NCBI RefSeq assembly: GCF_016599855.1
Contig: NZ_CP067041.1
Location: 4,898,001 to 4,962,000, forward strand
Reading direction: 5' to 3'
DNA length: 64,000 nt
From: Bradyrhizobium diazoefficiens
GTDB taxonomy: Bacteria; Pseudomonadota; Alphaproteobacteria; Rhizobiales; Xanthobacteraceae
The stretch's first letter is position 1. Each line of letters begins with the position of its first letter. Made by a program: the position numbers and the translations under genes. Positions 5,234 to 51,798 of the stretch are shown one piece after another. The notes below the pieces were generated by a model, which made no database searches, was not told where the DNA came from, and was given only the letters and a program-made list of their open reading frames with translations.

Positions 5234-6406
5234 TCAGCTTGGGGCGGCAGCAGCCGGTAGGGGCCGGCTCGCAAGCACCACGACCAGCGCCAGCACGACG
5301 AAGCCAACCGCCACGAAGCCAGTGCTGTGCAGCAATTCGCGGGCAAACAACAGCCCTCCGATGGCAGAGCCAATGGCTTGGCCGATATAGAGGACCGACG
5401 TATTGAGCGCGACGGTTGCGGGCGCCAGCGGCGGCGCCGCCGCGACCAGCCTTACCTGCTGCATCGAATTGGTCGATGCAAAGCCCAATCCCCAGATCGC
5501 CACCGCGAGCGCCATCAACACCAGACTGCCTGCGCTCAGCGCCCACCCGGCGATGCCCGCCAGTAACAGGCACGTGAACAGCAACGAGGTCCGGTACGGC
5601 CCCCACGTGTCAACAATGCGGCTCGCCACCACGACGCCGAGGAAGCCGCAGACGCCGTAGATGCCGAACACCATCCCGATCGCATCCGGGCTCGCCTCAG
5701 TCAGCTTCTTGAGCAGCGGCCCCATGAAAGTGAACACCGCGAACTGGCCGGCCATCTGGAGCATCGTGATCGAGAGCAGCAGCAGGATCATCCTGTTGCG
5801 ACCGACCTCGCTCCAGGTCTTCAGATCGACCGGTGTGCCCTTCAAACCGGCCGGCAGGCGCACCAGCAACAACAGGAAGCTGACGCAGCCGAGCGCGCCG
5901 ATCTCGCCATAGGCAGCGCGCCAGCCATAGCGGCTGGCGACGAAGGTGATCAGCGGGAGGCCGACGGCGGCGGCGAGCGACCAGCCAAGGAAGATATAGG
6001 CGATCGTGCTGCCGCGCCGCTCCGCCGGCACGATCAGCGCCGCCGTGCCCGCCGCCTGCGGCGTGTAGAGCGCGCCAACAGCAAGCATCACCAGGCGGAT
6101 GGCGAGGAGACCTGCGTAATCCGGCGCGAATGCCGAAGCAAGATTGCCAAGCGCGAGCACGGCGAGCGTGGTCGTGAGCAGGATCCGCCGGTCGATGCGG
6201 CTGGTCAGCCACGCCGTCAATGGCGAGCCGATGCACAGCGTGATCGCGCCGGACGTGATCAGCAAGCCGGCGGCGTGAATGCTGACGCCGAGCCCACCCG
6301 ACAATTCCGGCAGCATCCCCGCCGGCGCCAGCACCGAGCAGCCGGTGACGAGATTGCCAAGCATCAGGGCGGTTGCCGTGAAACGGCCGGCGCGGGAATT
6401 TTCCAT
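5234..6406 (-). CDS. MFS transporter (sugar/drug efflux type)
   Basis: The 390-residue protein starts MENSRAGRF and has about 12 hydrophobic segments. SRIDRR follows helix 2, the position of the conserved MFS loop motif, and residues near LAIRLVMLAVGALYTPQAAGTAALIVP match the proton-antiport half of MFS exporters. The minus-strand frame stays open far beyond this start, across all of thrS, but that upstream part is a composition artefact; ATG 6406 gives the normal family length. Divergent from thrS. The substrate is unknown. Confidence 0.85.
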   Translation of the reverse strand: MENSRAGRFTATALMLGNLVTGCSVLAPAGMLPELSGGLGVSIHAAGLLITSGAITLCIGSPLTAWLTSRIDRRILLTTTLAVLALGNLASAFAPDYAGLLAIRLVMLAVGALYTPQAAGTAALIVPAERRGSTIAYIFLGWSLAAAVGLPLITFVASRYGWRAAYGEIGALGCVSFLLLLVRLPAGLKGTPVDLKTWSEVGRNRMILLLLSITMLQMAGQFAVFTFMGPLLKKLTEASPDAIGMVFGIYGVCGFLGVVVASRIVDTWGPYRTSLLFTCLLLAGIAGWALSAGSLVLMALAVAIWGLGFASTNSMQQVRLVAAAPPLAPATVALNTSVLYIGQAIGSAIGGLLFARELLHSTGFVAVGFVVLALVVVLASRPLPAAAAPS

Positions 6407-6552
6407 GCAAATGCATGTAGAGCAGACCCGCGGCCAATTAAAGGGCGCGGCGCGAAATAGTTGGAGCACAGCCTCCGCTTTTGCGCGCCACTTTCTTGGA
6501 ATTGCCGGATTGCACAGGCCGAATCGCCTGATATATCGCTCGTTCCCGCTTA

Positions 6553-6570
6553 CCTGCGCTCGTTCGCAGG
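6553..6570 (+). promoter_or_regulatory. thrS leader hairpin with tRNA-Thr-like loop (candidate operator)
   Basis: CCTGCG (6553-6558) pairs perfectly with CGCAGG (6565-6570) around the loop CTCGTT, 22 bases before the thrS ATG and just ahead of its ribosome site. The loop reads C-U-C-G-U like positions 32-36 of a tRNA-Thr(CGU) anticodon loop. E. coli ThrRS represses its own mRNA by binding such a mimic. A second copy of GCTCGTTC sits at 6538-6545. Function is inferred. Confidence 0.4.
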
Positions 6571-6592
6571 AGTGAGCCTCAGGAGAAAAGCA

Positions 6593-8644
6593 ATGTCCGA
6601 CCAGCCCAAATCCGAATCCGGCTTCCAATATTCCCTCAGCAATCTGAAGCCCGCGAACCCCGCCGCCAAAGTCACCCTCACCTTCCCCGACGGCGCCCAG
6701 CGCCAATATGACAAGGGCATTAGCGGCCTCGACCTCGCCAAGGGCATCTCGCCCTCGCTCGCCAAGCGCACGGTCGCGATGGCGCTCGACGGCGTGCTCA
6801 CCGATCTCAACGATCCCATCGAAGCCGATGCGAAGATTGAGCTCGTCAACCGCGACGATCCGCGCGCGCTCGAGCTGATCCGTCACGACTGCGCGCACGT
6901 GCTGGCTGAAGCCGTGCAATCGCTGTGGCCGGGCACGCAGGTGACCATTGGCCCAGTGATCGAAAACGGCTTCTACTACGACTTCTTCCGCAACGAGCCG
7001 TTCACGCCGGGAGATTTCGCGGCCATCGAGAAGAAGATGCGCGAGATCATCGCGCGCGACAAACCTTTCTCGAAAGAGGTTTGGGATCGGGAAAAGACAA
7101 AGGAGGTGTTCCGCGACAAGGGCGAGGCCTTCAAGGTCGAACTGGTCGACGCCATTCCCGGAAACGAGCCGATCAAGATCTACTACCAGGGCGACTGGTT
7201 CGATCTGTGCCGCGGCCCGCACATGACCTCGACCGGCAAGGTCGGAAGCGCCTTCAAATTGATGAAGGTGGCCGGCGCCTATTGGCGCGGCGACAGCAAC
7301 AACCCGATGCTGACCCGCATCTACGGCACGGCGTTCGCCAAGCAGGAGGACCTCGACGCTTATCTGAAGCAGATCGAGGAGGCCGAGAAGCGTGACCATC
7401 GCAAGCTCGGGCGCGAACTCGACCTCTTCCACTTCCAGGAGGAAGGCCCGGGCGTCGTGTTCTGGCACCCGAAGGGCTGGACCATCTTCCAGCAGCTGAT
7501 CGCCTATATGCGCCGGCGTCTGACCGGCGACTACGACGAGGTCAACGCGCCGCAGATCCTCGACAAGTCGTTGTGGGAGACCTCGGGCCATTGGGGCTGG
7601 TACCGCGAGAACATGTTCGCGGCGCAGTCGGCGGGGGATGAAGCCGAGGACAAGCGCTGGTTTGCGCTGAAGCCGATGAACTGTCCCGGTCACGTTCAGA
7701 TCTTCAAGCACGGCCTGAAGAGCTACCGCGACCTGCCCTTGCGCCTCGCCGAGTTCGGCGTGGTGCATCGCTACGAGCCGTCCGGCGCCATGCACGGCCT
7801 GATGCGCGTGCGCGGCTTCACCCAGGACGACGCGCACATCTTCTGCACCGAGGACCAGCTCGCCGACGAGTGCCTGAAGATCAACGATCTGATCCTGTCG
7901 ACCTATGCGGATTTCGGCTTCACCGGCGACCTCACGGTGAAGCTGTCGACACGTCCGGAGAAGCGCGTCGGCACCGATGCGATGTGGGACCACGCCGAGC
8001 GCGTGATGGCGACCGTTTTGCGCGAAATCCAGGCGCAGAACAATCATATCAAGACCGAGATCAACCCCGGCGAAGGCGCCTTCTACGGGCCGAAGTTCGA
8101 ATATGTGCTGCGCGACGCCATCGGCCGCGACTGGCAGTGCGGCACCACGCAGGTCGACTTCAACCTGCCGGAACGGTTCGGTGCGTTCTACATCGACCAT
8201 GACGGCGGCAAGAAACCGCCGGTCATGGTGCACCGTGCGATCTGCGGCTCGATGGAGCGCTATATCGGCATCCTGATCGAGCACTATGCCGGCAACTTCC
8301 CGCTCTGGCTCTCGCCGGTACAGGCGGTGGTCACGACCATCACCTCGGAAGGCGACGAATACGCCAAGCAGGTGCTGGAGCAGGCGCGGCGCGCAGGGCT
8401 TCGGGTCGAGATCGACCTGCGCAACGAGAAGATCAACTACAAGGTCCGCGAGCACTCGCTGGCCAAGATCCCGGCGCTGCTCGTGGTCGGTAAGAAGGAG
8501 GCCGAGACGCATTCGGTCTCGGTCCGCCGGCTCGGCAGCGACGGCCAGAAGGTGATGACGACCGCTGAGGCCATCGCCGCGCTGGTCGACGAGGCGACCC
8601 CGCCGGATGTCCGGCGGATGCGTGCGGCGCGGTCTGATCCCTGA
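6593..8644 (+). CDS. thrS: Threonine--tRNA ligase
   Basis: The 683-residue product charges tRNA-Thr in the cytoplasm. It has an N-terminal TGS domain, the editing domain ([11 protein letters not shown] onward), the class II catalytic core and a C-terminal anticodon-binding domain ([10 protein letters not shown] onward). The zinc ligands that select threonine are present as Cys364 (MNCPGH), His415 (DDAHIFC) and His547 (MVHRAICGS), with the spacing seen in other ThrRS. About 20 extra residues precede the TGS domain. The ATG at 6593 has AGGAGAAAAGCA upstream; the frame is open further upstream but without a better start. Translation may be controlled by the leader hairpin at 6553. Confidence 0.98.
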
Positions 8645-51709: not shown

Positions 51710-51798
51710 GCGGGCATGGCGGAATTGGTAGACGCAAGGGACTTAAAATCCCTCGGTGCGCAAGCGCTGTGCCGGTTCGACTCCGGCTGCCCGCACCA
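51710..51798 (+). tRNA. tRNA-Leu (UAA)
   Basis: GCGGGCA pairs with TGCCCGC at the ends, and CCA is encoded at 51796-51798. The anticodon stem AGGGA/TCCCT holds the loop CTTAAAA, anticodon UAA. A long variable arm (CGGTGCGCAAGCGCTG) identifies a class II tRNA. The T arm is GCCGGTTCGACTCCGGC. Confidence 0.97.

Follow-up and report, generated by a model that had tools for sequence, protein, structure and literature searches.

The window, the 64,000-nucleotide stretch of DNA analyzed here, is part of a 7.10-Mb single-contig genome whose closest titled thrS relatives, among the best 80 of 590 loci, are Bradyrhizobium. It contains thrS, whose threonyl-tRNA synthetase (ThrRS) product matches 1qf6 at E 1.3e-217 and, judging by its sequence, has an anticodon-binding domain of the E. 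coli type (HGTP, PF03129). The gene upstream of thrS is transporter-like, lies on the - strand and is transcribed away from thrS. We also noted a 1092-aa open frame on the - strand (5234-8512), which runs antisense through thrS and is fused with the upstream transporter-like frame; we interpreted it as a side effect of high G+C codon use. The features of thrS and its leader are collected in Table 1.

Table 1. Features of the thrS leader and gene (positions are those of the window; loop residues are numbered as in a tRNA anticodon loop).
Feature	Positions	Strand	Details
Putative promoter, 16-bp spacer	6510-6537	+	TTGCAC 6510-6515, TATATC 6532-6537; proposed by eye
Upstream GCTCGTTC copy	6538-6545	+	judged outside the element
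Whole two-helix RNA element	6548-6577	+	GCTTA-CCTGCG-CTCGTT-CGCAGG-AG-TGAGC, 30 nt
Outer helix, 5 bp	6548-6552/6573-6577	+	GCTTA/TGAGC
Inner stem, 6 bp	6553-6558/6565-6570	+	CCTGCG/CGCAGG, perfect
Loop CUCGUU	6559-6564	+	C6561-G6562-U6563 at anticodon 34-36; U6560 at U33
3'-side bulge, 2 nt	6571-6572	+	A6571 G6572; conserved A-N between both helices
thrS Shine-Dalgarno AGGAG	6581-6585	+	3 nt downstream of element
thrS, threonyl-tRNA synthetase, 683 aa	6593-8644	+	ATG at 6593; TGS, tRNA_SAD, class II core and HGTP domains

A hairpin whose loop carries a threonine anticodon lies upstream of the thrS ribosome site. A sequence-only reading of this DNA had described a perfect 6-bp stem with the loop CTCGTT at this place, and this description was exact. 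Both stem and loop are real, but they represent only the upper part of a longer element that includes a bulge and an outer helix and ends 15 nt upstream of the thrS AUG. We compiled 201 such elements, 131 of them distinct, namely 197 model matches at leaders, the window itself and three further loci (L238, L239 and L241), and the bulged A was present in 200 of them, the exception being L040. In 166 of 196 model matches, a simple pattern detected a Shine-Dalgarno-like word and, after it, a start codon within 70 nt 3' of the element; one of the 196 is a chance antisense match (L041:1330). Where both were found, the median distance from element to start codon was 12 nt. Two further model matches, L015:2603 (-) and L230:95, were like L041:1330 (-) excluded as chance.

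The putative promoter of thrS was proposed by comparison with B. japonicum promoters, which are of the TTG/TATA type (PMC4842269), and a strict consensus scan found no promoter. From this promoter the thrS RNA would start at approximately 6543-6546, in which case the hairpin would open the mRNA and the upstream GCTCGTTC copy would be mostly untranscribed. That copy, which stands 20 bases before the one at 6558-6565, had been counted with the mimic in the sequence-only reading. It is present, but as a second mimic it was rejected, since a copy within 30 nt before the element was found in only 10 of 195 leaders (L001-L007 and L123-L125, the nearest relatives) and hairpins with an NGU loop are not in excess upstream. 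In the 100 nt before the element, NGU hairpins were detected in 7 of 195 stretches, as compared to a mean of 4.4 (range 1-10) in shuffles, and 8 of the 138 hairpins there have GU. The upstream copy is thus probably outside the element.

A single sequence was insufficient for the claim of a mimic, because neither the frequency of the octamer nor the stability of the leader is exceptional. There are 7 copies of GCTCGTTC in the window versus 4.75 expected, and 22 of 100 shuffles reach 7. The leader folds no better than its shuffles (z -0.85), and thermodynamic stability was rejected as evidence for the element. Pair probabilities in the window were 0.62-0.77 for the inner stem and 0.47-0.58 for the outer helix, and the mean inner-stem probability reached at least 0.5 in only 146 of 195 leaders. 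A best-hairpin scan without alignment chose other hairpins in many loci, and for this reason covariance models were adopted. When the covariance model R1 was run on the 7.1-Mb genome, with 150 of 3648 first-look candidates scored, the thrS site had 46.8 bits (E 9.4e-11) and is the only strong match. The next-best match (L082, E 0.06) was considered as a second site and taken as chance; it lies inside long open frames.

Comparison of thrS leaders from related genomes confirmed, at the level of aligned sequences, that the element is beyond chance. R1 found it in 78 of 80 titled thrS loci; these are nearly all Hyphomicrobiales by title and, being the best 80 of 590, lean to close relatives. The two misses were a locus without upstream sequence (L025) and a locus without the element (L027). 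Among near relatives, 38 of 41, the window's genome included, had a match at E up to 0.1. To these we added an order-wide sample of 140 genomes, including that of the window, every one of which had a thrS match; some of these genomes are of the same species as titled loci, so the two sets overlap. This sample yielded 139 leaders from 138 of the 139 other genomes (one genome gave two leaders and one with a partial gene was excluded), and R1 at E up to 0.1 matched 119 of them (88/100 and 31/39), on the thrS strand and adjoining thrS. Of the 20 leaders missed by R1, seven were seen on inspection to have a diverged element (L238, L239, L241, L246, L248, L249 and L250), and 13 are without it by both model and eye (L153, L259, L187, L223, L243 and L251-L258). 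L223 is a second thrS copy, and L153 and L259 share one genus. These last two and L027 form one lineage in the order, in which the leader element has apparently been lost and which offers a natural knock-out for comparison.

Conservation of the stem, which had been named beforehand as a test of the mimic, was borne out by compensatory change. In the seed alignment A1 (33 sequences, 10 stem pairs examined), 94.8% of cells were standard-paired and 7 of the 10 pairs had changed on both sides. The covariation score was 0.447, versus 0.168 in shuffles (0/500 as high) and at most 0.189 in slid controls, and two measures were weaker against shuffles: double-change pairs (9/500) and further pair types (157/500). 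RNAalifold, unaided, predicted eight pairs, all of which were within the 10 pairs of the element. A second sample of 88 R1 matches (71 distinct rows) was 96.9% paired, with double changes at 6 of 10 pairs and a covariation score of 0.238 versus 0.101; its alignment was fitted to R1 and so leans to the model, and it may share species with the first sample.

The loop is likewise not free to change at the positions that ThrRS would be expected to read, a further test that had been named in advance. GU occupies positions 35-36 in all 201 elements (189 by script and 12 with a shifted frame by eye), and the triplet at 34-36 is CGU in 124, GGU in 43, UGU in 30 and AGU in four. In the 189 elements parsed by script, position 33 is U in 157, C in 26, A in three and G in three, and position 37 is U in 104, A in 51, C in 20 and G in 14. 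The loop of Hyphomicrobiales elements is 6-8 nt long. As R1 had learned GU, we built a loop-blind model, R2, by masking the loop in 16 stem sequences. On 219 loci R2 gave 198 matches, 195 of them at thrS leaders, and GU was present in 195 of 195. In a quick ThrRS tree of 80 rows, of which 79 were labelled, at least 11 changes at position 34 were counted; 200 shuffles gave 12 or more (mean 13.7), and positions 35-36 were GU in all 79 labelled rows.

The tRNAs of the same genome provide a comparison for this rule. There are 48 tRNA matches, among which ARAGORN names three tRNA-Thr with anticodons CGU, GGU and UGU and loops UUCGUAA, UUGGUAA and UUUGUAA. The three frequent loop triplets are therefore the genome's own three threonine anticodons, and an anticodon matching the A34 of four elements is absent from it. 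The loop of the window had been reported to match tRNA-Thr(CGU) from position 32 to 36; because the tRNA loop is UUCGUAA, the match holds for 33-36 (UCGU) and fails at position 32. Position 37 is often U in the elements, versus A37 in the genome's tRNAs-Thr. ThrRS of E. coli is dependent on G35 and U36. Anticodon nucleotides are within the identity set, as described in a review (PMC9976931). The occurrence of AGU, rare as it is, suggests that position 34 itself would be hardly read, a pattern that fits recognition by ThrRS. Overall, the covariation of the stem and the invariant GU support the anticodon-mimic interpretation of the sequence-only reading, in which ThrRS binding and regulation would follow.

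An mRNA that imitates tRNA is known classically from the thrS operator of E. coli. In that system ThrRS binds operator hairpins that look like the anticodon loop of tRNA-Thr and keeps the 30S subunit from binding (PMC11088916, PMC3858243), and an operator given the tRNA-Met triplet instead comes under the control of MetRS (PMC11088916). The element described here is similar in that it belongs to the same gene and stands just upstream of the thrS Shine-Dalgarno sequence, presenting a threonine anticodon at positions 3-5 of its loop. It differs in architecture, as it has one 30-nt hairpin with an outer helix and a conserved bulged A, whereas two mimic hairpins (domains II and IV) and a linker make up the E. 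coli operator (PMC11088916). In 195 leaders, no second anticodon-like hairpin with a linker, as in domain IV, was found beyond the frequency of NGU in shuffles. By our own reading of the E. coli sequence (L292), the hairpin before the ribosome site is GTGATCT-TTCGTGT-GGGTCAC and the upstream one TAGC-ATTTGTTG-GCTA (as RNA, UAGC-AUUUGUUG-GCUA). R1 did not match the E. coli-type stem in sequence and structure: with filters off there were zero significant matches at the E. coli leader, the best score in the E. coli region was 10.0 bits, and the upstream hairpin scored 5.9 bits (E 3.9).

Based on the covarying stem, the loop rule and the E. coli parallel, we consider it very probable that the element is a compact single-hairpin operator to which ThrRS would bind for translational self-repression of thrS. 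The thrS mRNA would open with this imitation of the tRNA-Thr anticodon arm. With ThrRS in excess over its tRNA, free enzyme would use its anticodon-binding domain to grip the hairpin via G35 and U36, and the bound enzyme would keep the 30S subunit off, so that translation of thrS falls. Such a block is expected from the position of the hairpin, which stops 3 nt short of the Shine-Dalgarno sequence and lies inside the ribosome footprint. Free tRNA-Thr would compete with the hairpin and relieve repression. We infer the mRNA start, the binding, the competition and the ribosome block in this scheme, and a working like that in E. coli is the most likely one since gene, place and loop rule are the same.

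Other modes of action were weighed against these data. The minimum-energy fold of the window leader pairs the loop and the Shine-Dalgarno region differently from the mimic fold, with CCUG on CAGG of the Shine-Dalgarno region and GCUCGUUC on GAGUGAGC, as would be expected of a ribosome-site switch in which one of two folds hides the Shine-Dalgarno sequence under the influence of temperature, an ion or another factor. Such a switch is very unlikely, however, as the pairings that were examined and proved conserved between sequences belong to the mimic fold, which leaves the Shine-Dalgarno sequence free, and it leaves the invariant GU and variable position 34 unexplained. A 5'-terminal hairpin can protect bacterial mRNA, and the ThrRS-bound element might act mainly via mRNA decay rather than by a ribosome block. 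We regard this as very improbable given the short spacing to the Shine-Dalgarno sequence and start codon, and given that the E. coli parallel works on 30S binding (PMC11088916).

T-boxes, too, lie in the leaders of aminoacyl-tRNA synthetase genes, and the element, with its threonine triplet, could be imagined to sense tRNA-Thr and not ThrRS. What a T-box presents to tRNA is a codon. The loop here shows the anticodon NGU and not a threonine codon ACN able to pair; moreover, a search of 6400-6700 against Rfam at E up to 5 gave zero matches, T-box included, and no terminator was found 3' of the element, and we consider a T-box-like leader extremely unlikely. Finally, the inverted repeat CCTGCG-N6-CGCAGG near the likely promoter resembles a DNA site for a transcription regulator of thrS, a proposal that is hardly credible since the arms change (CCTGC, CCCGC, CGGGG, CGCCG, CCCGG) with pairing kept, the conserved loop and one-sided bulge are asymmetric, and the element stays close to the start codon.

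Anticodon-like hairpins at thrS were observed in other lineages as well. In f38, an alphaproteobacterial family (41 genomes searched, 30 loci) that may, going by its number of genera, be Rhodobacteraceae-like, 28 of 30 loci (L319 and L354-L380; not L352 and L353) have GGCGY-NNNGUNN-GCGCC upstream of the thrS Shine-Dalgarno sequence, mostly followed by AAACCGACGAGGAG or close variants. This hairpin is like the Hyphomicrobiales element in its NGU loop with variable position 34 (in a loop of 7 nt, GU in 28/28; position 34 C in 23, A in three and G in two), and differs in its GGCGY/GCGCC stem and its flanks; R1 had zero matches at f38 leaders. A diverged form of the element was present in four of four genomes of another alphaproteobacterial order, that of G148 (L094, L381, L382 and L383), as GCTTACCTGC-ATKGTGT-GCAG (also written GCTTACCTGC-ATKGTGT-GCAGAGAATGAG), with R1 scores of 14.4-14.6 bits.

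In a class-wide search with R1 (51 candidates scored per genome), 10 of 143 genomes had a match, and only that of the window's own genome adjoins thrS; the diverged element L094 was missed. We read 39 leaders from other alphaproteobacterial orders. A clear NGU hairpin is present in L094 and in three leaders of f38, and the other 35 showed none apart from single candidates (e.g., L100, L104). The absence of the element outside the order is consequently not firm, as it rests on 51 scored candidates per genome, a search that missed L094, and 39 leaders read.

Among 24 non-alphaproteobacterial thrS leaders, nine (L332, L336, L338, L341, L342, L345, L347, L348 and L349) have a 7-bp stem of the E. 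coli type in the same place, followed by ACC(A/G)CT, and two (L340, L344) have partial versions. The loop of the nine is NNNGTNN; its position 34 can be C, G or A and is thus variable, as in the Hyphomicrobiales. In five of these nine leaders another NGU hairpin stands 58-91 nt upstream of the protein match, as in E. coli. At E up to 1, R1 had zero matches at the leader hairpins of the 24 loci; a match at E 0.92 in L332 lies elsewhere.

The stems of the three hairpin types, those of the Hyphomicrobiales, f38 and E. coli-type leaders, are unrelated and their occurrence is patchy, as they were not seen in most other lineages sampled. For these reasons we lean slightly towards the view that ThrRS anticodon-arm mimicry arose more than once, the three types converging on N-G-U with a variable position 34. 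In yeast, mRNA anticodon mimicry bound by a synthetase is described for AspRS (PMC9976931), and another anticodon mimic in an mRNA bound by a synthetase is described in PMC6542539. The yeast synthetase mimics are eukaryotic, concern other amino acids and have another architecture. Among the matches listed in our search of the open-access literature, no thrS anticodon mimic in alphaproteobacteria was found, the cases being only E. coli, yeast, other eukaryotic or unrelated; the words "thrS" and "threonyl" are absent from the main texts of PMC1273637 and PMC6429828.

The element is outside the Rfam families searched: at the gathering threshold the sole match in the whole window was a tRNA at 51710-51795, and the E. 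coli thrS leader itself gave zero matches at E up to 1. It is found in rhizobia and many related genera, and thus provides a second, order-wide and structurally simpler set of mimics beside the E. coli operator. The natural variation of this set allows the recognition rule to be deduced, namely that G35 and U36 are constant and that position 34 and the stem sequence can vary. The leader, which would be about 50 nt from the likely RNA start, has one predicted contact point and is a ready test object. The three hairpin types suggest that the mimic strategy was invented repeatedly. If this is true, thrS would be a repeatedly evolved minimal protein-operator system, with its smallest form, one hairpin of ~30 nt, in the leaders described here.
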